Of a stretch of 64,000 nt of DNA, positions 5,948 to 55,990 are shown in pieces; position 1 is the stretch's first letter; each line of letters starts with the position of its first letter. A program made the position numbers and the translations under genes. The DNA lies in contig JAIVFJ010000009.1 in NCBI GenBank assembly GCA_025765615.1, forward strand, positions 575,166 to 639,165. Reading direction: 5' to 3'. Under the pieces are notes generated by a model, which searched no databases, was not told the DNA's origin, and saw only the letters and a program-made list of their open reading frames with translations. The DNA is from Zopfochytrium polystomum (Eukaryota; Chytridiomycota; Chytridiomycetes; Chytridiales; Chytridiaceae).

Positions 5948-7822
<1,875 letters not shown>

Positions 7823-11597: not shown

Positions 11598-11849
11598 AAT
11601 GTGAATCGGCGGCGACGGCGGCGGGGCTGAGGCGATTCCCTGCCCTTTGTGCGGTGCGGTGCGGTGCAGGTGCGGTGGGCGGTGCGGTGTGTGCGGCAGA
11701 GGCGGAGCAAGGTTTTGAGCAGCTGGACTGGACCGCACGTTTGTCTGCTTTTGTCTCTGTCTCTGTCTCTGTCTCTCCTTGACATCTTTTTTTGGACGTG
11801 GACAAACACGTGCATGAAATGCGCGCCCCTTCGGCCTCCAAACAAAAAA

Positions 11850-20968: not shown

Positions 20969-21081
20969 TAGTAGTAAGAAGGGTGCGGAGGGGAGGGGCG
21001 AGTAGTAGTAGTAGTGTAGTGTGTGACTCCTTTTGCGAGCAGCAGCAGCAGCAGGAGTTTTTTCTTTTCTTTCTCGTTCCT

Positions 21082-21141
21082 TTCTTCTTCTTCTTCTTCT
21101 TCTTCTTCTTCTTCTTCTTCTTCTGCTTCTTCTTCTTCTTT
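21082..21141. repeat. (TTC)n microsatellite
   Basis: About 20 units with one TGC interruption, upstream of the GH17 gene. Confidence 0.9.
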
Positions 21142-23846: not shown

Positions 23847-25274
23847 ATGAAGCGGCTGGTGGCGTACGACCGCAGCGATGACGACGACGACGACGAGGAC
23901 GCCAACGGCGGGCCTGGCCGAGCCGCGAGGGGCGCGGCGAGGGCGGCAGCACCCGCAGCAGCATCGGTCGGCGGCGGGATCGAACGGATGCGGGGCGCTG
24001 GCGCGTTGCGGGAAAAGGGTGCGTTCGGGATGCCGGCACTTCGTCCTCTAACCCCCCGCACGCGCTCGCAGCAGCAGGCTCCCCGCAATCCAGCGCCCCT
24101 ACGTCGACTCGGTCCGATCCGTCGTCGCGCGCAAAGAAGGTCAAGAAAGAGCGGTAGGTGTGGAGCGGGACTTTTGGAGGGTGGCGGTTCCTTACACAAT
24201 ACGGTTTTCAACGTCAGTGGCACCGGCAAGCTACCCGCGCCTGTTCTCCCCGATGGACTGCGCGACCGGTACAAGGAGAAGGGTGAGGTGGTTGGCACCA
24301 AGTAATCTGCGAACGAACTTTTTTGTTTTTTTATTTCTTTTTTTTCCCTCACAGTGGAGGCGAAGCTCCACGCATCGTCGGGACATCCCGTCACGTTCGT
24401 CCCTGGGAACTGGTCGACCGTGGTTTTTGTGGCTGGTAAACTACCCGATGCCCCCACAGCAGGGAAATAGTCGCTCCCGCTCATTTCCTAGGTTTTGTTT
24501 CGAACCCACCTTTTTCTTTGTAAAAATCATCATGGAGTCAGGTGTTCCGACGAATTCTCCGCGCTCGTGCAGGAAGTCTTGACCGAAGCGACCCGCCTTG
24601 TTCCGTCGCTTACGCCTGTCGCGCCGGGCGGCGGCGGTCTTCACATCAGTCTGTCAAGGACGATTTTCTTGAAGGCATTTCACGTCGACAAGTTTAACGA
24701 CGCGTTGAAGGAGGGCGTCGTTGACTGCAAGAGGTGATGGCCCCGAGGGGAGGAATGAAGAGCGGTGGAAAACGGCTGACGAGCCAAGGCAGGTTTTCGA
24801 TTTCGTTCACGCGATTGAGCTGTTACGTGAACGACGACGGAACGAGATCGTTCTTGAGCTTTGACGTGGGCGCTGGTCACGCTGACGTAGGTTTGATTAG
24901 ATTCCGCCTTTTTGCCCTGCCTCTTAATAACTTTTGATGCCCAGCTGGCATCGGCTCTGTCGCGCGTCGACGCTGCTGTCAAGAAACTCGATCAACCCAC
25001 ATTCTATGAGGTAAGCGACTTGGTCGTCTTGAGGCATCAGGGGTGCTTGCAAATGTCCTGCCGAAGTGACTTGGACCCCGTACCCCTCAACACAAAGGAC
25101 CCCAAGTTCCACGCGAGCGTCGGCTGGGCGCCGGACAAGGCGGCCCTGGACGACCGGATCGCCGACGAGCTCGACGTCAAATTCGCGCGCCGCCTGTCCG
25201 AGTTTTCGTTCTACGTCACCGAGGTCGTTTGCCGGACCATGAACAGGGATTTCAAGTTTCCGTTGCGTGCGTGA
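23847..25274 (+). CDS. USB1: U6 snRNA phosphodiesterase Usb1
   Basis: A 2H-family 3'-5' exonuclease that trims the oligo(U) tail of U6 snRNA in the nucleus. Eight exons give 310 residues: 23847-24018, 24072-24153, 24218-24282, 24355-24435, 24538-24733, 24793-24886, 24945-25010, 25098-25274; every phase agrees. The N terminus is MKRLVAYDRSDDDDDDED, typical of Usb1, followed by a Ser/Lys-rich linker. Then come the PVTFVPGNWSTVVFV strand and the two catalytic HxS motifs, GGLHISLSRT and KFHASVGW. The C terminus ends in the FKFPL type of strand. The fourth acceptor (GGAG before 24538) is chosen only by phase and is the weakest junction. The family call rests on the paired HxS motifs and N-terminal pattern. 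Confidence 0.88.
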
Positions 25275-25629
25275 TGTTTGTGGGAATGTGGGTGGGAGCC
25301 GGTGGCGCGGAAGTATTTTCAGCTTAACACTGTTCGCGATGTTTTGCACCGACAATTGGGGGGCTGTGTGTGTGACAGCGCGGGATGACTGCTCCTCCAC
25401 CCTTACCCTCCTCCTCCTCCTCCTTCCCTTCCCCTCCTGTCCGAGCGATGCCTGCCATCCATCGTTAGGCGGCGTCTTTCGTCGTGGGGTCAGGCCCGGC
25501 CAGCTCGATCGATCGATCGTGGTCGGTGGCACCCCACCATTCAGCCCGATCCCAATGAAAAAGTTTTTTTCGACGGATGTGCGAAGTTGGGACCGGAAAT
25601 CGGTTTGTTTACACTTTTTGTTGCAAAAG
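25275..25629. other. Intergenic / upstream of Zn2Cys6 gene
   Basis: Short spacer with a CTC-rich tract and GATCGATCGATC near 25507. It may contain the promoter of the regulator. No gene is called. Confidence 0.5.
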
Positions 25630-28474
25630 ATGTCGCCCTGTTCATCCCCTCCAAGCCCGGCCCCGACCTCACTACCCAGCCCCGCCCTATCCGCCTCCGC
25701 TGCGTCCACGACCGCAGCACCGCATCTGCCCGCTACTGCTGCCTCGTCATCGCTCTCTTCGTCACTATCATCGTCATCGTCATTATCATCATCGTCGTCC
25801 GCTGTCGTTGCTGGTGCAAAGGCGAAACCCCGTGCATCCTCCGCCGCCTCCTCCTCCTCAGGCGCAGTATCGTCGACGCGGCCCGCCGCTCTCACAAGAA
25901 GATGGTTTACTGTTTGCATTCGATCCCCAGGCCTCCGCACCCAACCCTGCCTCCATAATCCCAGCTTTCACCCAACCTCACCCATCCCCTCCCTCACGAT
26001 AATCCCCCCGCGCCCAAACAGGTCCTGCGAAACCTGCCGCCGCCGCAAGCTGAAATGCGAGGGCGAGCGCCCGACTTGCTACTACTGCGCAACCCGCAAC
26101 TTTGAGTGCGTCTACATCGGCACCCGCCTGCGCGCCGACATTGACGCAAAAAAGCGCGCGCGATCCCAAAAGCTGTCGCTTCCGCGCCCGACGCAGACGC
26201 AGACGCCGCTGGACCCGAGAACGTGGCAATTTGCCGTCCAATCGGGAATCCCGTCCGTCTTTGATCGGTTCCCGCTCCCGATCGCAATGACCCCGCCGCC
26301 CACCAGATCGTACGACGTGCCGTTCCGCCCGCGACCGGACGCGCCGGCGCGGGAAGAGCTGGATTTGATCGAGGAGTTTTTCGAGCGCGCCACGTTGGTG
26401 TCGGGCGTCATCCACAAGCGGACGTATTTGTTAAAGTTCGAAACGATGCCGTCTTACCTTCGGTTAGTAGGGTGATTTCTTCCAAACTTTTTTGTGTGCT
26501 TATCTCGGTGGGATCCAACCAGGTACGCCGTCTGTGCGGCCGGCTCGGGCAACCTTCCCTTCTCTCCCAGACGCCAAGAGGTGACCGATTGGTATGCGGA
26601 GCAAGCAATCACGGGACTCGACGTCGCCCTCAAGTATCCTTGTTTTGAGTGCATGCAAGCTCTTCTCATTCTTCCAGCTACACCCTCATGTGAGTGCCAG
26701 ACGCTGTTTGGACGGGTTCGTTTCCAATCAACATCGGCGTCTTTCCTTCTTCTTCCGCAGACACTGCGCCAGGGTACCATTCAGAAAACTTGAAAAAGCT
26801 GGTAAGGAGAACCTTCTGTTTGAACCACCTACTGACTGATCGGGCAATCGTCGCAGGCTGTTTTCCTTCGGCTGAATATCGACCCCGATTACCTTCCCGA
26901 TCTGGCGAGTTTGAGCTGGGCAGAGAAAGAGGCGCGACGTCGGTGTTGGTGGCATCTCTATATCGAGGATCACAGTTAAGACCGGATTCGATATTGAAGC
27001 GACAGAATTCTAAACCTTGCCACTCACTCTCATTTTCTTTCGCTGTCGCACAGCTTTCAGCACCGTGCTGTACCGCACACCTGCCCTGAACCAAAGCATG
27101 TCAGCCGTAAAACCCGCGTGTCCAGAAGGACTTTGGACATGCTCGAAGCCTGTCACCTCCCCCAGCACCGCGCCGAACTACACGGTCGACGCGTACAGCC
27201 CCGTCAACTGGCACGCCAAACTCGTCGAGATCTTCCACCGCGTGGGTCAGACCTCCCGTGCCTCCTCCGACGACGTCAGCGGCGGCGACCAGTCGCTCCG
27301 GCTTCGCGAGCAGGAGCTCGAAGTGGAGCTCCTCGGCTGGTGGAGCACGATCCCGGCGTCGTTCTGGCGGGTCGTCGAAACCGACGACGACCTCTACGAG
27401 GCGATGGTCGACGACCCCGGTACCTGGCTGTACGCTATGAACCTCTTCTTCCTGTACCACAGCGCCGTGTGCTGGCTGATGCGTCGCAAAATGCTCGTCT
27501 ACCTCCGCGACCTGTCCTCCGCGACAACCGTCTCCGCCGACTCCCAGGAGGACGAGCTCGACCAGCTCGACAACCAAGCCGCGTTCGCGATGGCGCTGCG
27601 ATCCGCGGAACGCATCGCAAGACTCATATCGCTGTTGAACCGCACCAACGCGTTCACACACCGCCTCCCGGACCTCACCGTCTACTTTAGCTCGCAAGCC
27701 GTCGTCACCCTCCTCAGCGCCCACCTCGCCCTCTCCACCCGCTCCACCCGCCACCGCTACTGGCACTTTCACATCGGCGGCGCCTCCGACACCGGCGTCT
27801 CTCCGTCCCCGCCGCTGCTCGACCCGTCCGCAGACGAAATCGGCGCATGGGCACAGTGGATCGAGTACTACCTCTGGCTCCTCAAATCCATGACCTCCTC
27901 CCGCACCGTCTCCCGCCTCTTCGCCCGGTTCTTTTACAAACTCGCCGACAGGGCCCGCCTCGGCGACTGGCGATACCACGACGGCATCGACGCAAACAGC
28001 TCCTCCCTCCTCCAGGACGTCGGACTCCCCGACGGACCCGGGGACTCTGGGAAGGTGCCCGCGAGACACCCGGCGGACGCCAGCGCGAGGCCGTACGCGG
28101 AAACGGGGAACGTGATGGTCTTAACGGTGCGCAGCTTTATTGGTGCGTTCCGCGCCGCCACGGAGATCGGGAGGGCCGCCACACCGCCCCCGCCGCCGCC
28201 TCCGCCGACGACGACAACGGCGCCCCCGGACTCTGCGTTGCTTGGGGGAGGGCTGACGTCGTGGTCCGCGATCGACCTTGCGCAGTGGGCCGCCGCGACG
28301 ACGTCCCCGACCGCGGGGAGCTTGCCGCAGGTCGGCTTCTTCGTGACGGGCAACGGGATGATCGGCGCGGACGGCGGCCTGCGGGAGGCCGGGGAAAAGG
28401 CTTTGGCGGCTGGCGCGGACGGCGGCTCGGATATTGCCGAGTGGCTGGACTGGCTGAGCACCCGATCGCATTGA
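25630..28474 (+). CDS. Zn2Cys6 fungal transcription factor
   Basis: A nuclear regulator with the binuclear zinc cluster SCETCRRRKLKCEGERPTCY...C (C-x2-C-x6-C-x6-C-x2-C-x6-C) encoded at about 26022-26120. The fungal-specific regulatory domain follows. Later exons: up to 26462, 26523-26689, 26761-26801, 26857-26974, 27054-28474; phases agree. Splicing makes a continuous middle homology region with CFECMQALLILP, NLKKLAVFLRLNIDPD and LSWAEKEARRRCWWHLYIED, all typical of this family. A long C-terminal part ends with Pro and Gly-rich segments. The start is uncertain: 25630 opens a Ser-rich leader in frame, but an intron ending at the AACAG before 26022 is possible. No target genes can be inferred; neighbours are not an obvious pathway. 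Confidence 0.85.
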
Positions 28475-41413: not shown

Positions 41414-42477
41414 AGTAAGGTAATGGTGCACTGGTCACAGGGTAACGCTTTAATGGAAATCGACTTCTTTTTTTCTTTCTTTTTTGTTCGTAAAGCCCTG
41501 CATGCAAGTTCCTGTTCCTTCCACGACCCCTCTTGGCTCTCCCTCTCATCAGAATTATGTTTGTCGTGCAGTACTACAGTAAAATGTGTACGAACGAAAG
41601 AAAACAAAACAAGCTTCCCGCACAAACATGTACGTGCGTGATAAATAAAGGTGTTCGCTCAAGTGTGGGTTGCACGCAATGGAGAACTCTCCAACCTGGA
41701 AAAAAAAAAGGAAAGGAAAAAAAAGAAAGAGAAAATTTTCGTCGACAAAGGTGAGAGGAGCCAGGCATTGGGCGACGCACCCTTCCCCCGTTGCAGGGTA
41801 GCCGCCACCACCACCGACGTTCTGGACACATGGAGGCTCAGATGGATCGGGCGACGCTGGATCGCATCCTCCCCGAATCATGATCTGCCCCATCACAGAC
41901 TCGGCCCGCCGGCCACGTTGTGGGGTTGGGCGATGCTGGATCGGACAAACCGCCCCCATGGCTCGGTCGAATAGATGTTCCGGGACACAAATGACGAGTG
42001 AGTGAGTCACCTCCATTCGCTGTTTAGATATTAAGCAACTGACCAGTGGACCGCACCGCTTCACACCCCCTCATCCCAGCACTCCTCCAAAATCCCCTCT
42101 CTTCAAAAGTGTCGAAATTTCGCAACTGTATGATCCATGATTAACTGTGGTAAGCAATTGCAGGGAAGGGGGGGCGATTGACTGATATTGACTGATGAAA
42201 TTTTCGACCACTTCTTTGTTGTCACGTATTTGTAACCATCCAAACGCCTCAACAGTCTCCACCCACCGAGTATCTGTCTCCATCAACATTTTCTTGACCA
42301 TCTTTTGCACTGATCACAGGACAAGTTGACGAATGAATGCACTTAATAAGTGCTCTACTTCCAAATTCCTGAGCGTCTCCTACACTCTCCCCACTTCAAG
42401 CATTAGTTTACCCTCCCAAATCTAACACTCAAGTCCTCTTTGCAGAACCATATCACAGAGTACGCTTTCAGAGAATA
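41414..42477. other. Intergenic, upstream of the NLR gene
   Basis: A/T-rich runs at 41465-41490 and 41700-41737. No gene is supported. Composition shifts here from the GC-rich to the lower-GC accessory block. Confidence 0.55.
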
Positions 42478-45400
42478 ATGACCAGTCAAGCAACTGCTTG
42501 GACTGTGACCTTTGTGCATGATGGCCTTGGAAGGAAGGTCCGCATTCCGGCAACCACTGACTTTCGTGGGCTGCATCAGCTTGTTTCTGCCAAATTCCAG
42601 ACCTCTTTTGCCAAAGAGTTGGTGTATGTGGACTCCGCCACCAACGATGAAACTGTCCTTGACGAGGATGATGATCTACCCAGTCTGCTTTCTCAGAATT
42701 TCAAGTGGAAAGTAAGAACCTTTGTGTATTGCCTGCACTTCTTTCTTTGTTGCATCTTCTATTTGTTCTCACAATTGTGCAGGTGGTTGGTGCTATGAAC
42801 TCCAGCCCCACTGGAACCACTTCTGCTGCTGCTGCTGTCACAACTCCAGAGGTTAATCCAGAGAGCAATGTGACGAAGTAAGTGCAAATGCTCCTCCCAA
42901 TTTCTCTTTCTTCACCTGACATTGATCATCCTATGAACCTTCACAGATTTGTGACCGAAGCCAGAGAAGTGTACAGCCGCCGCAAGACTGATTTGAAGAC
43001 TCCAATCATTAGTCCAGATATTTCGCTTCCCATTTCCAGCTTGCCTAAATTGGAGAAATGGTTGACTCCTTTCTCTGATTTGATGGATATTGAGAGGGAG
43101 GCTCTCCTGAAGGACGTCCTTCCTGGATCAAGGCAGTGGCTGTTGAAGAAAGTTTTTCAGTTCTTGTCTCCAGATGATGCTGCAGCAGCCAACCCCAACA
43201 GGGTGATGTGGTTGAAAGGTGTTGCTGGTATTGGCAAGTCTGTAATGGCTGCCATGGTTTCCAGGGAGTTGCAAGCCCAGGGCATGCTGGGTGGCCTGTT
43301 CTTTTGCAAGCATGATGACAAGCGTCGCAGCAGTGCACGCAACCTGGTCTTGACTTTGGTGTTTGGTCTTGCAAAGTTCAGTTATCAATTTGGAGAGATC
43401 CTGCTTCAAGTCAAGCAAGACAATCCAGATATTCTGTCCAAATCTGTATTTGAGATGATGAAAGTTTTGCTTGTTCAGCCATTGGAGAAGGTTGTTGCTG
43501 CCAGAAAGCTGGATACACTGGTGGTACTGGTTGTCGATGCCCTTGATGAATGCAGTGTTGTTGGGAAGAGGAATGAGATTCTTTCAGTATTTCAGGAGCT
43601 GAACAGGCTGCTTCCTGGTAATGTGAAGATGCTGGTGACTGGACGACCTGAAGTAGATATTGTGAAAGCCTTTAAGAAGATTCCATTTGAAGAGATTGAG
43701 CCAACGGCAGATGAGAACACTCAGGACCAGATTGAGTTCACAAGAGATTTCCTCAGGTCTTCAAATGCTGAGCAACCTGTTGTTGATGAGGGGTCTGAGA
43801 TTCTGGTGTCAAGGTCTGCTGGAATATTTGTCTGGCTTGTGACTGCTTGCACTTATCTGTGGAAATTAGAGACTGAAAAAGTCACTATTGAGAAAATTAA
43901 AGACCTTCCTGACGGTGACAAGATGGATGGATGCATTGACTCAATGTATGACAGAATATTCAATGGCATCCTCCAATTTATCAGAGGGAGTCATTTGGAA
44001 AATCTTCTTCCTGCTGTGCTGTCCACCATTGTTCTTGCCTATGAGCCTCTAACTGCTGCTGCAGTCGTATCTCTGCTGGACAAGGAGGAACCTGAAAATG
44101 TCATGACGTGCATCCGCATGCTTGATCCCATTCTTGTGCTTGATGGTTCAACCATGAAGATTAGGATTTTCCACAATTCTGTCAAGGACTACTTGACAAC
44201 TCCAGAAAGATGCAAGCTGTCTGTTCAGATTGACCTCAAAAGCATCCACTCTGAACTTGCAAGTGTGTGCATCAGTGCAATGAGCAAAAATCTGAAATTT
44301 AATATGTGTGACCTGCTATTCTCTGATTTCTACTCTGAGATCCCTGATTTTGATGAGAGAGTGGAGAAGGGAGTCCCTGAGCCTGTCGGATATGCGGTGA
44401 AGCACTTCTGGGAGCATTGCTTTGATTCCTCAGTGGAAACTACAGGCAAGACAAATGACAAGGAGGAGAACTTGAAGAAAATTGCAGAGGCAACCTCTCC
44501 CATACAAGGCACAAAGGCCAAAGAAATCAAGTCCATTTCCAGCTCCTTCAAGAGGAAGGACTGGGCAAAACATGAGTCCGAATTCAGTGCTGAGTTGAAG
44601 GAAGGTTCAGTCGAGGGTGCTGCGCCTGTGTCTGTGACTTCTATCAGGAAAGTATTTCAGATTGACGAGACACTGTTGGCTGAATTAGAAGCTCTTCTTG
44701 TGCAACATGGACATCATTACCTTGAAGCATGCAGTTTGATTGATTCACTTACTTTGGTGATTCCAGCCATGACCAAGCTCCAGAGTCTGGTCACTATTCC
44801 TGGAAAAAAACGATTGCACACCCTTATGGAAGACATGAAAAGGGTTGTGCAAAAGTTTCTCATTCCACTGAAGGCATCTGCGTTGCAAGTTTACTTCACA
44901 GCTGTACCATTCTCCCCAAGTGACTCTGAATTTTTTAAAACATTTGTCCAGAATGTGCCTGGAAGTGTGTCATGCCCTAAAGTTGTAAAAGGGCAACCAA
45001 AATCTTGGTCTTCCTGTTTAAATATTCTGGAAGGACACTCTGGTTTTGTCGAATCTGCAGCATTCAGTCCTGATGGGCAGTTTGTTGTGTCTGGAGGTCG
45101 GGACAAGACAGTCAGGATTTGGAATGCTTCCACTGGCCAGGAGCTGCATAAGCTGGTGGGACACTCTGATTTTGTCAAATCTGCAGCCTTCAGTCCTGAT
45201 GGGCAGTTTGTTGTGTCTGGAGGTCGGGACAAGACAGTCAGGATTTGGAATGCTCACACTGGCCAGGAGCTCCGTAAGTTGGTGGGACACTCTGAAGTTG
45301 TCAAATCCGCAGCCTTCAGTCCTGATGGGCAGTTTGTTGTGTCTGGAAGTGAAGACAAGACAGTCAGGATTTGGAATGCTTCCACTGGCCAGGAACTGCA

Positions 45401-46913
45401 TAAGCTGGAGGGACACTCTGAATTTGTCACATCGGCAGCATTCAGTCCCAATGGGCAGTTTATTGTGTCTGGAAGTGAAGACAAGACGGTCAGGATTTGG
45501 AATGCTTCCACTGGCCAGGAGCTCCGTAGGCTGGAGGGACACTCTGAAATTGTCGAATCTGCAGCCTTCAGTCATGATGGGCAGTATGTTGTGTCTGCAA
45601 GCGAAGACAAGACAGCCAGGATTTGGAATGCTTCCACTGGCCAGGAGCTGCATAAGCTGGTGGTACACTCTAGGACTGTCAACTCCGCAGCATTCAGTCC
45701 TGATGGGCAGTTTGTTGTGTCTGGAAGTTCTGACAATGCAGTCAGGATTTGGAACGCTTCCTCTGGCCAGGAGCTGCATAAGCTGGTGGGACACTCTCAT
45801 GTTGTCGACTCTGCAACATTCAGTCCTGATGGGCAGTTTGTTGTGTCTGGAAGCGATGACGAGACAGTCAGGATTTGGAATGCTTCCACTGGCCAGGAGC
45901 TGCATAAGCAGGAGGGACACTCTGATAAAGTCACATCTGCAGCGTTCAGTCCTGATGGGCAGTTTGTTGTGTCTGGAAGTGTTGACAAGACAGTCAGGAT
46001 TTGGAATGCTTCCACTGGCCAGGAGCTGCATAAGCTGGAGGGACACTCTGATTCTGTCAGGTCTGCAGCATTCAGTCCTGATGGACAGTTTGTTGTGTCT
46101 GGAAGCGATGACGAGACAGCCAGGATTTGGAATGCTTCCACTGGCGAGGAGCTGTGTAAGCTGGAGGGACACTTTGATGTTGTGAACTCTGCAGCATTCA
46201 ATTCTGATGGCCAGTTTGTTGTGTCTGGAAGTGGAGACAGTACAGTCAGGATTTGGAATGCTTCCACTGGCCAGGAGATGCATAAGCTGGTGGGACACTC
46301 TTCTGAAGTCTACTCTGCATCATTCAGTCCTGATGGGCAGTTTGTTGTGTCTGGAAGTTGGGACAAGACAGTCAGGATTTGGAATGCTTCCACTGGCCAG
46401 GAGCTGCATAAGCTGGTGGGACACTCTAAGTCTGTTGAATCTACAGCCTTCAGTCCTGATGGGCAGTTTGTTGTGTCTGGAAGTGAAGACAAGACAGTCA
46501 GGATTTGGAATGCTTCCACTGGCCAGGAACTGCATAAGCTGGTGGGACACTCTGACTTTGTCAAATCCGCAGCATTCAGTCCTAATGGGCAATCTGTTGT
46601 GTCTAGAAGTCGGGACAAGACAGTCAGGATTTGGAATGCTTCAACAGGCCAGAAGTTGCATGATCTGGCGGGGTTTTCTGCATTTAGTGATGATGTCGCT
46701 GCTCCAAGCATGTCACACAATTGCAGTGCCTGGATTTGGACAGGAGAGCCGCTGCAGAGTAAATCTGTGATAAAAAATGGTGTTTGGTTCATCTTTGATG
46801 TCGCAAAAGTCTGTTTCTGGCTTCCGCCCGAGTTACGTGGCGACTTTCAGCTCCTTTCAAGGCAAACTGCTCTCTTTCTTGGTGAAGGCTTTTGTTCTGT
46901 CATAAAAGTTTGA
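42478..46913 (+). CDS. NLR-like receptor: PB1-like, NACHT, 13 WD40 repeats
   Basis: Three exons (42478-42711, 42783-42877, 42947-46913; introns 71 and 69 nt, phases 0 and 2) encode 1431 residues. Residues 5-80 form a PB1-like beta-grasp: WTVTFVHDGLGRKVRIP, a helix, then an acidic DETVLDEDDDLPSLL resembling the OPCA motif. Exon 2 is a Ser/Thr/Ala linker. The NACHT NTPase has Walker A GVAGIGKS (201-208) and Walker B LVVLVVDALDEC (301-312), followed by VTGRPEVD and a helical region. From residue 804 come 13 WD40 repeats of 42 residues, nearly identical, then a degenerate unit and a 70-residue tail. In fungi, STAND proteins of this plan (HET-E/HNWD type) sense ligands through variable WD repeats and trigger responses such as incompatibility. 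Ligand and output here are unknown. GC content is lower than in flanking genes. Confidence 0.93.
45027..46664 (+). repeat. Thirteen 126-bp tandem WD40-coding repeats
   Basis: Thirteen in-frame units of 126 bp (42 codons) starting at the CTG codon at 45027. Long blocks such as those encoding SPDGQFVVSG and TVRIWNASTGQEL are almost unchanged between units. Differences cluster at codons 6, 7, 9, 24, 25 and 27 of the unit. This is coding minisatellite structure and will be prone to copy-number change. Confidence 0.95.
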
Positions 46914-48467
46914 TCAGGAAATGGCTTTGTCGCTTCTATGTTCTCTGTCTCTGTATTTGTTGCTGTGGGCAAACTTGTTTTATCAAAAACAGTGTTTTTG
47001 AAGGAAATAAAAATGAAAGATTGCTCTGGTCAAGGACAGATTGTCCAAAATTTGCATATCAAATAGTATATAATCAGCATAATCTAATCCATCGCAGCAA
47101 AATTCGAATCCCGATTTTTTTTTTTTTTTTTTTTTTTGCAGAAATGTAAAATTAGTATCCCACCCCAAACATTTGAGCTCGCCATGAATGTATCAGGGGT
47201 AAAGAAGAAAAAAAAATGGGGAGTATGGTTTCAACAATCAATCTTACCTTAGAGAGTGCTTTTTTTTTTTAAATCCTAGACATATCAATCTGGCCCTTTG
47301 GGGACGATTAGTCCGTTTGGCCCTCACATAAGGCTTGGTCTTCACACACTGGCCCAAGGGGAATGTTGTTCCAGACATATCCATCCAGGCCCACTTAGTG
47401 AAAGTGGGGCCACTATCAAGTCCACACTATCAAGTCCACTATCAAGTCCATTATTGAGTCCATTTTGTGTCTCCTTAATTGTTTTTATTTGGCCAATTTT
47501 ATTGTTTTTGTTATGATTTTCATTCACTATTGAGTCCACACATATGGACTCAATATGGTCTCAATATTGGCTCATATGAGGCCAAGTCTAATTGTTTTTT
47601 TCGTCAATTTAACCCTGAGCTAGTTTGAATTGTTGATCTGGTTTTAGCGCAAAGTACTGAGACCAAGAATTGTTGGTGGTCTGGTTGCTGGTTTAGCAGG
47701 CACCAGATGCAATGGCAGTGGACGTCGTCAGATGCGCTAGGAGGCGTAGGCAACAAACAGCAAGAAGTCAAATTGCAGGTCGGCAAAACCAAAGCGAGTC
47801 ATTGTCAGCAAACTGCAAATTGCAGTGGCTGGTAAAAACATTGTCAATCTGGAGATTAAAGAAAATAGTAGTTGTCCAGTAAATTGAAATTGATAATGAT
47901 ATGATTATAGATGTTGTTGATTTGAGGCCACAAAAGAGCATTCAATCAGTGGAATTCACAGCAGAAATTTTTCCTGCTGCTTTGTTATGTGCAAAGAAAT
48001 TATTCTGGCTCAAAAATTATTTCAGGTTTCAAAAGTATTGTGATATATGTCATGATATTTAATTAGTAAAAGTATTGCGATATTTTGGGCTATAGTATCA
48101 ATTTGAAACCATAGTGGCTGGCAGCGAGCCAGTGGAGATCCTCCAGGTGGGTGGCAGATTGTCAAACAGCCCCAAGTCAATAGACAAAAATTGAGGTTTT
48201 GGAACCACACTTTCTGCAGGAAAAAATTGAATGTTTTTATAGAAATCAGGAAAAATAAGCAAATACCTGCACACTGATATCTGTGATGGGAGGACTGGAA
48301 TTCTGTCCTTTCTTTCCATTGAGAATTTTGGACTTCTTGTGTAACATGTGTGCAACAAAAATCTTGATCTTTCATGCACTTCTGCTTCAATTTTTCTGCT
48401 TTACTGCTTTTCCAAAGACATCAGAAAGGCCTATGTCCCAGCTATTGTCGCATGAGTGGGCGATCCT
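46914..48467. other. AT-rich intergenic region
   Basis: No gene. Holds a T23 run (47115-47137), a small ACTATCAAGTCC minisatellite (47411-47461) and scattered short frames. Confidence 0.6.
47411..47461. repeat. ACTATCAAGTCC minisatellite
   Basis: Three 12-14-nt units of CACTATCAAGTCC followed by a diverged ATTATTGAGTCC copy. A related ACTATTGAGTCC recurs near 47525. Confidence 0.75.
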
Positions 48468-48540
48468 GGGGCTTGCTGGGGATTGAACCCAGGACCTCCT
48501 CCACCCGAAGGAAGGAATCATACCACTAGACCACAAACCC
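48468..48540 (-). tRNA. tRNA-Pro(CGG)
   Basis: Minus strand: acceptor GGGTTTG/CAAGCCC (one G-T pair), anticodon stem CTTCC/GGAGG with loop TTCGGGT (anticodon CGG), T arm CTGGG-TTCAATC-CCCAG. No intron. Confidence 0.9.
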
Positions 48541-50102
48541 TCCGCCTCATTTGAAGGTAAATTACGCTTCTAATGCTCTTTACAGATTTGCCTTAAGGGC
48601 CCCAACAGCTACTGGCCCCAGATTCATGTCTTTCTTCAGGCCAGTGATGCAGTTGACAACCTTTCACTAATCATGCACCAGCACGACTCCTAAACAAGTC
48701 CACGTCACTATGCCCGCCTTTCTGCGACAGAGTATTGGTGCAATTGCCTATCTGCACATTCTGCTCCAATAGCTTGAACACCAGCAGATACAGCAGATAT
48801 CAGCAGGTTTTTCTTTGGATGCAAGCGGATATACACAGTCAAATTTGATATCTGCGTACTGCTTATATCATTATCTGCCAAATGTCTGCAAGTCAGGTTA
48901 GCAACCCTTGTCCATCTCTACCTTACCTGCATCCAGAAGCAGATATCCACTTTGGGTTGGTGTTTGACCACAACCCTTTGTTGTTTGTGCTGGGACTGAT
49001 AAGTGTGGTGGTTTTTCTCTTTTTTTTTCCCTTTTTTTTTTTTTTTTTTGTGTGTTTCCCACAGACGTAGGACTTGCTCCCACATCACTTGACTGCCTAT
49101 CCTGGGGTGCCTAATACCGCCATTACATCACCTAATGCATTGGGTCCTGGGATGTTCCCCAGTGTCCAAAGTGGCAAGCCTGCATCCCTAACAGGCCCAG
49201 TATCCCTCTGACCAAATTGCTTTACCTCAGCACCAGCGCCGTCACTGTCTGCCAACAATTTGTGGTTTTTTGGATGACGGCTATATTCATTACTGGATTC
49301 ACAGCTAGCCTCTGCCATGACAAACCCTGTGATTACGATAGTCGGACCTATGCTGTAGTTCCCCTCTGCTTGACACTATAGCTGGATTCAACCAAAGATC
49401 TCACCCCAGGAACAGTCCCTGGCGACTGGGAAAGAGCTGGTCCAGCAGACAATTTTGGATTCAAAGATTGCAGCTGGTTGTGGAAGGCCAGAAACCTTGA
49501 GGCAAAAGTAACTACTCCCATTTAGGGTCAGTTTGAGCTCAGTGGCAGAATGTAGTGTGAAACCGCAAATGTCAGCAGTGCTGCATTTGTGGACATGACA
49601 GACAAACAAACCCACTGGTCCCTACATCCAGGCTCCATGGGTGTGACAGACAACACAGTGGCATTGAGCAAACCATAAGTAATAAACTTACAAAAGCCTT
49701 CAAATGAAGGCAAAGCACAGTGGATTAAGTGTCTGCAGCGCAATTGGGAGGTGGGGGAGGGGTTGATGGGCAGGTGATCTCTTAAGAAAAGAAAATGGGA
49801 CTGTGGGGCTCCAATTACGCAGACTTTTTGATCTGAAGCGGCTTGACACCAATGGTGACATCCAACAGAGACATGAGGGCAAAATTATTTACAGAGATAT
49901 CCTGAAAATTTTGGTGAGTGAGACAGGGCCAGAGACTGTCAGCTGAAAAATTGCCAGAAATAACAAAATGCTGACAAACTAGTCATTTCTTTGTATTGGC
50001 AGGTCAGTCTGCTGTCCAGTCACTGACAGGAGTATTGATTTCAACTTTGCAAGTGGGTCACTCACCAAGGTTTTCAGGATATCGCAGTAACAGATAGAGA
50101 AA
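48541..50102. other. AT-rich intergenic region
   Basis: No gene or RNA recognised. Repeated CAGCAGATA-type words occur around 48780-48805 and a T20 run near 49031-49049. Confidence 0.55.
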
Positions 50103-50184
50103 TGAGCAGAGTGGGATTCGAACCCACGCCTCTCTCGAGACTACGACCTGAACGTAGCGCCTTGGACCGCTCGGCCATCTGCCC
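50103..50184 (-). tRNA. tRNA-Leu(CAG)
   Basis: Minus strand, 82-nt class II tRNA: acceptor GGGCAGA/TCTGCTC (one G-T pair), D arm GCCGAGCGGTCCAAGGC, anticodon stem CTACG/CGTAG with loop TTCAGGT (anticodon CAG), variable arm TCTCGAGAGA, T arm GTGGG-TTCGAAT-CCCAC. Confidence 0.92.
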
Positions 50185-50375
50185 CCATCCCCACACATCC
50201 CCCTTTTAATAATAGCCTGCACTTAGCCGCTCATCAAGGCAGTGTATCTATGAAGGATAATGGATACCGAGAAGGAATTCAATCAGAGTCTTTCCCCAGT
50301 ACGATATTTACACAATGGCAACTACAAGAACATTGTCCTAATTTCAAATAATGCAGCGGGGAAGGCTGAAAGACA

Positions 50376-50469
50376 GCCTTCTTGGCTCAGTTGGCAGAGC
50401 GTCTCCCTAGTACCAGGAGTGAATCCTGACGGCAGGAGAAGGTCACCAGTTCGATTCTGGTAGAAGGCA
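50376..50469 (+). tRNA. tRNA-Thr(AGT) with a 21-nt intron
   Basis: Acceptor GCCTTCT/AGAAGGC, anticodon stem TCTCC/GGAGA, loop CTAGTA-A interrupted after position 37 by an intron at 50413-50433. T arm ACCAG-TTCGATT-CTGGT, discriminator A. Anticodon AGT. The intron position is the canonical one for nuclear tRNA introns. Confidence 0.9.
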
Positions 50470-51191
50470 TGGCTGGCAGGAACTGGGCCTGTTCTATCCC
50501 ATTATTGAGCCTTACTGGCAGGGAGCGCTTTCTGCATTGATCTGCATTTCTGGGTTATTTTCCAATCAATCTGAAACCAGCCAGGAAGGAGGCTAAGGCT
50601 GGCTGGATTCAGACCAGATACTAAGAGCTCTGTATCCAAGAATACACACAGACATGGTTTTCTCATATCTGTTTAAAGACCCAGATATCTAGTGGAGGGC
50701 GGATGTCTGGACTTTGTCAGCAGATTGGGCAGATATTTGGTCTTTTTGCGTATCAGTGACTGGGAATTATCTGTGAGGCAGGTGTGGGCAGTAACCATAT
50801 CTGTCCACCACATCCCAGAGTTGGAGCAGATCGGACAGAGATCCGGCAGAGGTCCAGTCTCCACTTTCTCAGATGCCAGCCTTAAAGGAAGCTGTTCTCC
50901 AGCACTGCCCATTGATTGTGTGCATACTCCAGAACTGTGTTCAAGTCATACCACTTGCACTTAATCAGGAACTTCTGTTTTGGTTTTTTTCTTTTCCCCT
51001 GAGGCACAAATCTGCACCCAAACCTCTTTATAATTGTATGATGTTCCTAAGTGAGACACATTTGACACAAGGCAAAGTCTCAGCACAGTAGAAGAGTCAG
51101 GCATGCTAGCCTATTTGTTTACTTGGCTAAACTGGTTGTTGTCTGTCGTGCTTCCCACAAGATTTTGCAAACCCCACGAAGTCTTTGCACT

Positions 51192-51265
51192 GGTCACATG
51201 GTGTAGTTGGTTATCACGTCTGTCTAACACACAGACGGTCTCCAGTTCGAGTCTGGATGTGACCA
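51192..51265 (+). tRNA. tRNA-Val(AAC)
   Basis: Acceptor GGTCACA/TGTGACC, anticodon stem TCTGT/ACAGA with loop CTAACAC (anticodon AAC), T arm TCCAG-TTCGAGT-CTGGA, discriminator A. Its 3' end lies 131 bp before the left LTR of the Ty3-type element. Confidence 0.95.
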
Positions 51266-51396
51266 AATTCTCCTCTTTCTTGTCCCAGCTCTACTGTCTG
51301 GTTGTGGTGTTTGTGCTGTTGGCAAAAGATGGATGGTGGGCTGGTGAAGGGGTTTTGTGTGGGTTTCAGTTCCCAAATCAGGAAGGTGGCTCCAGA

Positions 51397-51697
51397 TGTG
51401 AGAGAACTTCACGTCATCCGCTTTGTCTTCCTTCCTTGTCACTTGTCGAACCCTGATGCTTCACTTCCCGCTCCGCATCGTTACCTTCGTCTCCCCCTTT
51501 GTTACCTTTGTGTCATTCTCCACTCCCTTACTTTCTGATGTATCACTCTCCGCTTCCCCTGCCCTTCATATCGGATAACTCTCAACCATCGGACTTCTAG
51601 CAGTATAAAACCGCCCTTTTGCAGTACCTATAAAGAGGCGAACCTCCAAAGACCTTCCACTACGCTTCAAAGGACCCTTCCTTCGAATTCCCTCACA
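51397..51697 (+). repeat. 5' LTR of Ty3-type element
   Basis: 301 bp from TGTGAGAGAAC to CCTCACA (TG...CA ends). Contains TATAAAA at about 51604-51610 and a second TATAAAG near 51631. The first 70 bp recur at 56249-56318. The right boundary is supported by the primer-binding site starting three bases later. Confidence 0.82.
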
Positions 51698-51699
51698 TT

Positions 51700-51709
51700 T
51701 GGTAGCAGC
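51700..51709 (+). other. Primer-binding site, initiator tRNA-Met
   Basis: TGGTAGCAGC is the exact complement of the 3' end (GCTGCTA plus CCA) of the initiator tRNA-Met encoded at 17834-17905, starting three bases after the LTR. Ty3-type elements commonly use this primer. Confidence 0.85.
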
Positions 51710-51764
51710 AGATAACGTCCCTCATCCGCTTACCCCTCGTTCACTCAACGCCGCCTCTTTCACC

Positions 51765-52925
51765 ATGGATTCACCAACTGGTGATGACGACGAAAATTCC
51801 CTTTCACGTAACCTCGCCAACCTTCTCCTGAACCTTGACGAGGATGCAGAAGAGCGCACCGAGCCTTCAGACAACGAGGACACCACCCAAGCTCAACAAG
51901 CCACCAACCCAGCCACTGCGACCACTCCCTGCAACTTCAAGATGCCAAGCGTCATGCCCCCTTCCTTTGACGGATCGGTTTGACATCTACCTGCCCACCA
52001 AGCCCAACAGCAAATCGAGGAATACCTTTATGCTTGTGAGCAACTCTGCAAGCTTCACGACTTTCGCACTGACAATTCCCCTGCCACCTACCGAGTTCAC
52101 CACCGCTACGCCTTCAGGGTTTCAACGCAACTCAAGGGAAACGCCCTCTCAGCATGGAAACAGTTGTCGCCACACCACCGCCAAAACATGCGTTGGACAA
52201 CCTATTGCAAGTCGATTCGCCGCCAATTCAGCTCTTCTCTCGCCTACGACCAAGTAGTTGTTGCACTTGTCAGATTGAAGCAGAACAAGTCCGCCGCCAC
52301 ATACTCGGCTGACGTCAACTCCATCCTTGGCTCCTTCGTCGGCCACAACCTCCCTGTACGAGCGCAGTGCGCGTTCTACCGCAACAGTCTCAAAGCTCAT
52401 ATTCGCTAACGCCCTGAAATTGCGTCCATGATCACCAGCCTCTGCGCTCTCCAGCTTGAAGCCAAACGAATTGACGACCTCTCATGGCAGTCTCACGGCG
52501 CCACTTTGCAAGTTTCTTCACGGCTTGACTCCCTCACCAACCGTCAACAAAAAAATCGACAGCAGCAGCAACAGAACCAATCCACACCGCGCCCACAGCG
52601 CTCCATGACCTTTGAGGAATTTGGTCGAGCTCACTGAGATAGCAGCTTTGGGCAACGAAAGCAATCCCGCTATGAGCTTGCAGAAGTCGATCCTATGCTC
52701 GGCATGATGCAAGGAAACACTCAAAAACGTCAACCTCTCACAGACCGGGAACGCAGCGAGTACCGCACCCATGGTTGGTGTACGTTCTGCCACCACAAGG
52801 ACCACACTGTCGACAGTTGCACGCACCCAGACTCTCACAACTCTCGCAAGCGCCATGACAACAGTAACGCCAACATTCAAGTTGCCACTGCCACCGATAA
52901 AGGAAAGAGCGGTGAGCGACGCCAG
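51765..52925 (+). pseudogene. gag-like region of the LTR element
   Basis: Opens with MDSPTGDDDENSLSRNLANL and an acidic stretch. It reaches MPPSFDGS (a common gag start of the capsid region) and then breaks at a frameshift near 51975. Capsid-like sequence resumes in another frame (RRQFSSSLAYDQVVVALVRL), is cut by TAA near 52408 and TGA near 52635, and ends with a CCHC zinc knuckle (CTFCHHKDHTVDSC). Nucleic-acid packaging was its role; this copy is not functional. Confidence 0.8.
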
Positions 52926-53059: not shown

Positions 53060-55990
53060 CATCTCATCCTCTTCTAGTTGTCATTGGCTCTTTCCGGGGC
53101 GACCCCATCAAGATCCTTATTGACTCCGGAGCATCCCCTTCGTTCATCAACTCTGACCTTGTCCCTTACCACCGCAAGAAGGGAACGATTCCCATCACGC
53201 TCGCCGACAGCTCCACCACCACCCACGGCTCGCAACACTCCCACATCTCCTTCCAAGTAGATGGAAAAAACCTACCACCACGACCTTGTTTCCACCACAA
53301 TTGCGTACGACATCATTCTTGGCAAAGACTGGCTTGACAGCGTCAACCCTGCAACGGCTGGCCCACCAACTCTCTTCGCCTCCAGGACGGCACCACCTGG
53401 CAAGGCCGCAAAGCAACTGACATCCACGTAGAAATCTGCTCCGCCAACGCCTTCAAGCGCGCCATTCACAAGTCCCACCTCTGGGGGATTCTACTCTCCA
53501 TCAAGACCACTGCCGACTCCAATGTCGCCGACACTACTGCACAAGAGAAGCTCAACCCCGAAGTCCGCGCCATCATTGACAAATATCCACATGTCTTCGA
53601 ACCCTTTGAAGGCCTTCCGCCAGCTCGCTCTACCACGCATTCCCCTCATGGACCCTCTGTCACCTCCTCCATGGCGACCCATCTACCCCATGTCAGAGGA
53701 CGAACTCGCCGCTCTCCGCGAAGAACTGGACATTCAGCTGAAGCACAGCCGCATTCAGCACTCCACCTCCCCTTACAGTGCACCCATCATCTACGTCCGC
53801 CAAAAGGATAAGTTACGTCTTGTGTTCGACTACTGTGCTTTGAACAAAAACACCATCAAGGACCACACGGCTCTTCCAAACATCTCCGAGATTCTTGATC
53901 GACTTGTGAAAGCCCGCCATTTCTCCACTCTCGACCTCGCCTCAGGCTACCACCAGCTGCAGATCCATCCTGATGACCGCCACAAGACCGCATTTTGCAC
54001 GAAGTACAGACACTATGAGTGGGTAGTCATACCTTTTGGTCTGTCAAACGCCTCTGCCACCTTCCAGGCCACCATGAATTGCATCTTCCAGGATTACATT
54101 GACGCTTTCATGACAATCTACCTTGACGACATCCTGATCTATTCGTCCACTTTTGAGAACCACATGGCGCATATCGACCTCGTCCTCCAACGACTTGCTG
54201 ACAACATGTTGCACTGCCACCTCTACAAGTGCTCGTTCCTTCAAGACGAGATTGACTACCTTGGCCACCACGTTCGCCTTGGCGAAATCTCCGTTCTATC
54301 ATCGCGACTTCAAGCAACCAAAGACTTCGAGCCCCCTCGTTCCTGGACCGACCTCTGAGCCTTTCTCAGTCTCACCAACACAATCCACCGCTTCACACCA
54401 CACCTCGCAGACATTTTAGCACCGCTTTCTGACCTTCTTTGCCGGGGGGAGTCCATTACAAAGTCAACGCCTTTTGAATGGGACAACTCTTATGATGCCA
54501 TCTTCACCAACGTCAAGCACGCCATCTCTCAGCCGCAAACCCTTGCAATGTTCGACCCTTCCAACCCTGTACACCTGTACTCTGACTGGTCCACCCGCTC
54601 TATTGGCTCCTACGTCACCCAGCCTGCCGACAACGGCACAGAGCGCCCCATCGTATGCCTCACGAAAATACAACCCTGCAGAATCCGCCTAACATCCCTA
54701 TGAAGGCGAAATACTTGCTCTTGTTTCCGCCTTGAAGCAACACCGCCAGTACCTTATCGGCCGAGAGGTGAAAGTATTTACAGACCACTCATCCCTCAAG
54801 CACATTCTCGACCAGCCTAAACTCCGACCTGTACACCACCGCTGGATCGCCGATATCCTCACCTTTGACTTCCAAATACAATGGCTCCCAGGCAAATGGA
54901 AATAACGTCGCTGATGTCCTTTCCCGCCGAACATTTACCTACACCATCGCTACATAGGTCTCTGACTCTGATTTCGACGCACCAACAGTCACTCTCAACA
55001 ACATGTTATCGATCAACGACAACCTTCTCGACGAGATTCAGGCCCTCTATGGCACCGACGGTGACTACAAGCAAATCACAGACGCACTAGGCGACAAAAG
55101 GACCACGCCAAACCGTCTCTGCAAACACCTCCGTCGCTACACCCTCCGTGACAATCTCCTTCTCTACGATGCCAATGACGGCCTCCGCTACTACGTTCCC
55201 ACTGCCCTCCGCCAGCGTTTCATACATCTTGCCCACTCTGACGGCCCTGCCATCCACACCTCTTGGGAAAAAACCGCCGAACGTTTAACCCAGAATTTCC
55301 ATTGGTCAAACCTCCACCGTGATGTTCAACATTTCGTCCGCACCTGCGACGCCTGCCAACGCTACAAAGCTGTCCGCCGCCTCCCTTACTGCCTCCTCTC
55401 GCCTCACGAGATCCCACCAACACCATGGCACACCGTCTCCATGGACTTCATGGGTCCGCTCCCACCGACAGCTTCTGGATTCACTGCGATCACTGTCTTC
55501 GTTGACTCTGCAACCAAACACACGCACATCGCTGCCAGCCGCATCACTGACTCTGCCGAAGTCGTCGCCGCCCTCTTTGAACGCATCATCTGGCGCTACC
55601 ACAGCTTCCCCAAGCACATCATCTCCGATTGCGACTCTCGATTCCTTTCCAACTTCTGGCAAGCCCTTCGCAACAGCCTCGGAATCCGCCAGACTATCTC
55701 CACGTCGTTCCATCCTCAAACCAATGGCCAAAGAGAGAACAAGAATGGATGGATCATTGCTTCCCTCCGCCCATATGTCAACTGGATCCAAAACGACTGG
55801 GATCGCTTCCTCCATATCATTGAGCACGCCATCAACGACACCATGAACACATCAACTGCCTTCCGAGAAGCTCGCCACCATCTTCTACGGCCCGTTCCGC
55901 ATCATTGCCCGCCTTGGTACTTCCTATCAACTCGATCTCCCTCCAACTTGGCGTTTTCACCCTGTCTTTCACCCTGAGAAACTTTGTCCC
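53060..55990 (+). pseudogene. pol-like region: protease, RT, RNase H, integrase
   Basis: The protease active site DSGAS lies near 53122-53136, followed by a frameshift. The longest RT frame (53522-54358) has the LDLASGYHQL and the YLDD catalytic motif (about 54119-54130) and stops at TGA 54356-54358. RNase H-like sequence follows in shifted frames to about 54960. The integrase frame (55003-55977) is open over 324 codons with an H-H-C-C finger (CDACQRYK), MDFMGPLPP (first catalytic Asp), ISDCDSRF (second Asp) and a degenerated NGQRENKN around the catalytic Glu. The last part changes frame into a chromodomain-like tail (RTFYNHPQILVSW). No complete polyprotein remains. Confidence 0.88.

Follow-up and report, generated by a model that had tools for sequence, protein, structure and literature searches.

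A TIR-less PB1-NACHT-WD40 gene in a large family of NLR-type genes of the chytrid Zopfochytrium polystomum

The window analyzed here, a 64,000 nt stretch of the genome of Zopfochytrium polystomum (Chytridiomycota, Chytridiales; contig C9:575166-639165), carries on its plus strand a predicted gene of 3 exons, with GT/AG introns, for a protein of 1431 amino acids in which a PB1-type domain, a NACHT-type NTPase and an array of WD40 repeats follow one another. The gene is a TIR-less derivative of a PB1-TIR-NACHT-WD40 family, the TIR domain having been lost in frame, inside exon 2. A first-pass annotation of the same DNA had proposed PB1-NACHT-WD40 as a new class of NLR; this order is instead a derived form and not the plan of a class, since at 80 of 93 paralogous loci a TIR domain separates PB1 from NACHT, and the window copy is without the one it once had. 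With somewhat better than even confidence, the gene is regarded here as belonging, without a TIR of its own, to a very large family of NLR type whose plan, PB1-TIR-NACHT-WD40, is an NLR variant.

The family was delimited by six-frame scans of the genome assembly (80.16 Mb, 761 contigs), and broken copies are included in all locus counts. The 94 NACHT matches merge into 93 paralogous loci, to which Pfam alone adds another 22, for 115 in all. Allowing upstream distances of up to 4 kb for PB1 (E<=1) and up to 2.5 kb for TIR (E<=0.01), one counts among the 93 loci 80 with PB1, TIR and NACHT, 6 with PB1 and NACHT and no TIR, 4 with TIR and NACHT and no PB1 match, and 3 with neither; in the same order, the Pfam-only loci number 1, 0, 3 and 18. 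Those last 18 (e.g., C67:207409-207876), many with open frames of about 405 amino acids, are perhaps another family. The median gap from the PB1 exon to NACHT is 1086 nt (86 loci and one Pfam-only locus) versus 234 nt in the window gene, and the extra sequence in the gap of the seven siblings that were read is a TIR domain. A TIR query against the genome gives 128 matches at E<=0.01.

In sibling C359, GT/AG splicing yields a frame of 1301 amino acids that is still open where the DNA read stops, inside the WD repeats. Its TIR_2 match exceeds the cut-off (32.3 bits, cut-off 28) and NPHP3_N scores 91.1 bits, with 25.7 bits for NACHT (cut-off 26.7) and 17.7 for PB1 (cut-off 23.6). In an alignment that did not require the motif (35 loci searched), 24 of the 25 loci matched have LLE as the last residues of the first TIR exon (the remaining match ends a residue too early), and in all 21 matches that extend so far the second TIR exon opens with WE. 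The LLE-WE glutamates, kept in the siblings, are candidate NADase residues. A divergent locus, L114 (C110:9300-12700), has two PB1-type segments (29.6 and 20.0 bits, one over the cut-off) followed by TIR and NACHT pieces, and is possibly an older form of the family. PB1 and TIR also occur at loci where no NACHT was detected (20 such TIR hits), which were considered as MyD88-like adaptors; that idea is unsupported, because all 5 loci read hold broken-frame pieces of a family NACHT.

The deletion junction of the window gene lies on the plus strand at approximately 42848..42849, its placement being ambiguous by alignment, and about 855 bp are lost in comparison with sibling C397 (gaps of 234 nt and 1089 nt, respectively). 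In exon 2 of the window gene, which ends ...TTPEVNPESNVTK (...GPKANPENDVMK in the siblings), the beginning of the linker runs straight into what was the last part of the TIR exon. When the DNA of the window is aligned with that of six close copies, C397 and C270 prove to retain the TIR, the window, C79 and C63 have a junction in common, and C182 and C257 have another junction, at which residues 30-84 of the second TIR exon are retained. In a NACHT tree built from 13 chosen rows, C182 and C257 group with the TIR-bearing C397 (100/99), separate from the window group (92/92). Since these well-supported branches require it, TIR status must have changed at least twice, and the best tree needs three changes because C397 sits beside C182 (94/94). 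At C144, one of the six PB1 and NACHT loci without TIR, the NACHT match begins at query residue 87, so that its deletion is probably a different and larger one.

The coordinates given earlier for the gene proved exact, with the ATG at 42478 and the stop codon ending at 46913. All features lie on the plus strand: exon 1 (42478..42711) encodes the 78-residue PB1-type domain, exon 2 (42783..42877) the start of an Ala/Thr-rich linker joined to the final residues of the former TIR exon, and exon 3 (42947..46913) the NACHT-type NTPase, a middle part that by analogy would be helical, the WD40 array, a C-terminal tail and the stop. Introns 1 (42712..42782) and 2 (42878..42946) both run GT...AG, and the third exon is an open frame of 1343 amino acids. 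The PB1-like N terminus does occupy an exon of its own, as had been claimed, and this arrangement is a family trait: a PB1-type exon lies upstream of 86 of the 93 NACHT loci (same strand, within 4 kb), with GT directly after it in 68 of the 70 paralogous exons read. Because the architecture recurs across the family, chance is excluded, and the gene observation is confirmed as real.

Public gene models for Z. polystomum draw the boundary elsewhere, in that P0002, P0003, P0004 and P0006 all begin downstream of the TIR, as would be expected if exons 1-2 were a separate gene and NACHT-WD40 a protein in its own right. On the matching contigs, however, PB1-type and then TIR segments precede NACHT (PB1 being matched weakly, at E 0.04-0.05, on C60 and C344), a Chytridium lagenaria model (P0009) has the end of a TIR joined to NACHT-WD40 within one protein, and in both the window gene and C359 the exons connect cleanly in phase and at their splice sites. 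A separate upstream gene is thus very improbable, and a PB1-TIR front end would simply be hidden in public models that begin after the TIR.

The NACHT core of the window gene was located by the six-frame genome scan at 43200..43652 (plus strand; C9:618365-618817), with what we take to be a P-loop (GVAGIGKS) and a Walker B motif (VLVVDALDE). The first 537 residues of the protein score 91.7 bits against NPHP3_N (PF24883; cut-off 24.8) and 26.1 bits against NACHT (PF05729), just under the cut-off of 26.7, which is passed with 27.0 bits in the six-frame scan. A central NTPase with P-loop and Walker B, and C-terminal repeats of the superstructure-forming kind, here 13 WD40 repeats, are both NLR/STAND features that the window gene possesses; it has no TIR upstream of the NTPase, as a TIR-NLR would. 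PB1 would then be a candidate signaling domain at the N terminus of an NLR. Both PB1 and NACHT are under purifying selection: compared with paralogs, the ratio of nonsynonymous to synonymous substitution rates (dN/dS) of the window copy ranges over 0.27-0.45 in exon 1 and 0.21-0.46 in NACHT, C79 being excluded from both with no change in exon 1 and three changes in NACHT (ratio 0.6).

Identification of the N-terminal domain as PB1 comes by way of the family. Of 45 paralogs in the alignment, 38 match PB1 at E<=0.1 (best E 6e-9), scores of 30.4 and 29.6 bits put divergent paralogs over the PB1 cut-off, and the first matches of the paralog profile in the PDB are the PB1 domains of NBR1 and MEKK3. 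Exon 1 of the window gene, taken alone, scores 13.1-17.0 bits against PF00564 and does not pass the cut-off of 23.6, so that the earlier proposal of a PB1-like N terminus is sustained by the paralogs and not by the exon itself. A single-sequence AlphaFold model of exon 1 has low confidence (mean predicted local distance difference test score, pLDDT, 57.5) and its best Foldseek match, at E 0.54, falls short of E<=0.001, so that the evidence for a bbabbab beta-grasp fold, as in PB1, is supportive at most. Some other beta-grasp fold (RA, CIDE-N, Crinkler header or ubiquitin) might be imagined in its place, and RA and TUG-UBL1 do match one member each, with TEN_YD-shell matching four. This alternative is already disfavored and highly unlikely, as neither CIDE-N nor the Crinkler or ubiquitin families have a match at E<=0.1 in any of the 45 members, 38 of which match PB1, and as the divergent paralogs score above the PB1 cut-off.

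The two faces expected of a PB1 domain fared unequally. The acidic, OPCA-like stretch noted in the first-pass annotation is present in exon 1 (D52, D57 and D62-D66), its middle differing from what we take to be the textbook OPCA motif, and an acidic residue at 52 plus at least 2 acidic residues within 62-66 are found in 69 of 70 exons, the window's among them. On the opposite face the beta-2 basic pair is kept (R19 K20) and the beta-1 lysine is absent, being replaced by Val13; across the 70 PB1 exons this residue is Val in 33, Glu in 23 and Lys in 10, where the equation of the column with the canonical PB1 lysine is a reading of the alignment.

The resemblance of the family profile, and of the low-confidence model, to PB1 domains of MEKK, MEK5, Cdc24 and phox proteins is what might recommend the suggestion made earlier that the protein is a PB1 adaptor NLR, which would signal without any TIR through PB1 partners in mitogen-activated protein kinase (MAPK) or NADPH-oxidase modules. 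The genome does hold further PB1 proteins, some with a ZZ-like Cys cluster. Likeness to the MEKK domain is at the level of the fold, however, and extends to NBR1, TFG and Bem1 as well; moreover, a TIR effector stands beside PB1 in 80 of 93 paralogous loci. The sibling TIR points to TIR-type signaling over MAPK or NADPH-oxidase signaling, which no evidence singles out, and the adaptor proposal is accordingly judged improbable. As to the other PB1 proteins themselves, L118 and L122 combine PB1 (36 bits in L122) with the ZZ-like cluster and are p62/NBR1-like by eye, and L117, L119, L120 and L121 resemble one another, each having a PB1-like segment and, behind it, a hydrophobic C terminus that looks like a membrane anchor; L121, the one of these four tested, scores 36.6 bits, over the PB1 cut-off.

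The WD40 array consists, as the first-pass annotation had stated, of 13 repeats of exactly 42 amino acids each (45027..46664, plus strand), and tandem repeat detection returns a period of 126 with 13.0 copies at 45033-46672 (score 2336). The description of the repeats as near-identical is apt outside five hypervariable sites, where identity is 86%, and fails at those sites (positions 6, 7, 9, 25 and 27), where it is 20%; mean pairwise identity overall is 78% for protein (67-90%) and 87% for DNA. Positions 6, 7, 9 and 25 each show seven residues among the 13 repeats, almost every change being nonsynonymous, and 12 of the 13 contact-site combinations are distinct. The same positions are the most variable across paralogs, in the order 7, 25, 9, 6, 27 (135 repeats from 27 paralogs, i.e., 141 repeats recovered from 28 of 30 loci less the window's own 6), in a search that prescribed His 4, Phe/Leu 13, Gly/Asp 17 and Trp 32. 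Within the window, positions 7, 9, 25 and 27 account for 247 of 711 pairwise differences, a share reached by 2 of 100000 random four-position sets. In the NWD genes of Podospora, according to Paoletti et al. (PMC1805685), repeat-unit codons 7, 9, 25 and 27 are under positive selection and lie on the interaction face of the propeller. The WD40 contact positions of the window gene are hypervariable, and their comparison with Podospora is one of position. Repeat DNA is 90% identical within single genes and 88% from one gene to another; with so slight a difference, the repeats look homogenized across the family.

A mechanism can be proposed for the family. The WD40 propeller would recognize a ligand and the NACHT domain would act as an ATP-driven switch and oligomerize. 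PB1 domains pair end to end, and such contacts might here stack receptors and gather the TIR domains of siblings, which, by analogy with TIRs elsewhere, may trigger defense or cell death by cleavage of NAD+. That NLR switches oligomerize, and that TIR domains can cleave NAD+ and drive defense or cell death, is established for these families and described in part in PMC10197012, PMC12881547 and PMC9815663. A TIR-less copy could then be a sensor or modulator that borrows sibling TIRs via PB1 and NACHT contacts, and the window gene probably has a sensing or regulating role, exerted by way of PB1 contacts with siblings that carry a TIR. Carried further, the proposal becomes a chytrid sensor-helper NLR network in which PB1 filaments of TIR receptors raise TIR activity and TIR-less members, having arisen repeatedly by in-frame deletion of the TIR, are dedicated sensors or brakes that plug in via PB1; this larger scheme is offered tentatively, as a possibility on the unlikely side.

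Several observations weigh against a functional, PB1-assembled receptor. Head-to-tail stacking of PB1 is unassured because exon 1 falls below the cut-off and has Val in place of the beta-1 Lys. The sibling TIR has no match in the PDB by sequence on which its catalytic Glu could be mapped. Among the matches listed, PB1-TIR occurs in no protein outside this genome. C79:62216-64415 (L010/L040) is 99.8% identical to window 42263-44462 over 2.2 kb and ends abruptly after NACHT; 1.3 kb read beyond it has no match to the window and hence no WD repeats, and the copy is a truncated duplicate. Two other TIR-less copies, C182 and C63, also look degenerate, their open frames being short (660 and 706 amino acids), and NACHT dN/dS of the window copy is higher against nearest relatives (0.34-0.46) than against distant ones (0.21-0.28), which relaxed constraint would also give. 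The strongest alternative builds on these last points, together with the broken NACHT pieces at the five PB1 and TIR loci, which indicate that decay occurs in the family: the window gene would be a decaying duplicate with an internal deletion that does little or nothing, or that at most interferes by accident as a dominant-negative. Yet the window copy itself looks intact, with its 1343-residue third frame, canonical splice sites and in-frame deletion junction, and with 13 regular repeats whose contact-site combinations are distinct in 12 of 13. Decay is a serious though minority possibility, and a TIR-less family member that would sense or modulate together with its siblings is the preferred interpretation.

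Among known systems, the NWD/HNWD proteins of Podospora anserina (HET-E and HET-D; HET-NACHT-WD40) are alike in having NACHT followed by a regular array of 42-residue WD40 units that vary at 7, 9, 25 and 27 (PMC1805685). They differ at the N terminus, which is HET in Podospora, PB1 in the window gene and PB1-TIR in its siblings, and HET has no match at E<=0.5 in window residues 1-537 or in 777 residues of C359. They differ also in family size, with 80 PB1, TIR and NACHT loci here, broken copies included, versus 10 members reported for Podospora in the same paper. TIR-type NLRs (plant TNLs, bacterial and Chytridiomycota proteins) resemble the siblings, whose TIR lies directly upstream of the NTPase and matches TIR_2 over the cut-off in C359, but here there is an additional PB1 domain in front of the TIR, WD40 repeats form the sensor, and in the window copy the TIR is gone. 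PB1 scaffolds (NBR1/p62, MEKK2/3-MEK5, Cdc24-Bem1 and p40/p67phox) share the sequence profile, the acidic OPCA-like face and the basic pair of beta-2, and the low-confidence model suggests that they may share the fold; unlike them, PB1 here is the N-terminal domain of an NLR-type gene, and the window copy, like 60 of the 70 exons read, lacks the beta-1 Lys.

Window residues 1-200, searched against about 5.8 billion proteins, have no match at E<=0.001 among the 1344 candidates listed. For the NACHT region there are 27 matches among the best 7992 candidates, and for the sibling PB1-TIR region one among the best 7991, which matches in the TIR and elsewhere only weakly, in low-complexity sequence. 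A related TIR is found in Polychytrium aggregatum (35% over 188 columns), and P0015 (JGI source; TIR_2 and NACHT) is a distant relative. The term "PB1" is absent from the main text of the five papers searched for it, which deal with fungal NLRs, immunity or gene transfer (PMC9815663, PMC4986451, PMC10197012, PMC12881547 and PMC11291939), and a search of open-licence papers for PB1 with NLRs found nothing relevant. The fungal NLR survey by Dyrka et al. (2014; PMC4986451) reports no chytrid matches, and PMC9815663 already mentions TIR-NLRs of Chytridiomycota. The PB1-TIR-NACHT-WD40 plan is found in none of the literature searched.

The gene sits in an AT-richer stretch of the window (42001-52000; G+C of 41-49% in 2-kb windows), G+C being 50-67% over most of the remainder, where a second AT-richer region lies near 31-34 kb. 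Reverse transcriptase and integrase domains at 53432-55974, about 6.5 kb downstream of the gene, belong by eye to a Ty3-like retroelement. Elsewhere in the window are minus-strand genes of sulfatase, GH43-like (just under the cut-off) and GH17 type at 5951-7822, 9525-11849 and 18707-21139, and a plus-strand gene for a Zn2Cys6 transcription factor at 25243-26472. An IFT46-type gene together with the Zn2Cys6 domain fits a flagellated fungus.

One chytrid thus holds some 90 related loci, broken copies included, whose PB1-TIR front end was missed by all four matched public gene models, and whose sensor surface varies at repeat positions that also vary in Podospora allorecognition genes. If PB1 drives assembly, chytrid NLRs would have a polymerizing adaptor module comparable to the death-fold domains of animals, and the repeated loss of TIR would have produced natural sensor-only versions that could show how effector and sensor roles separate.

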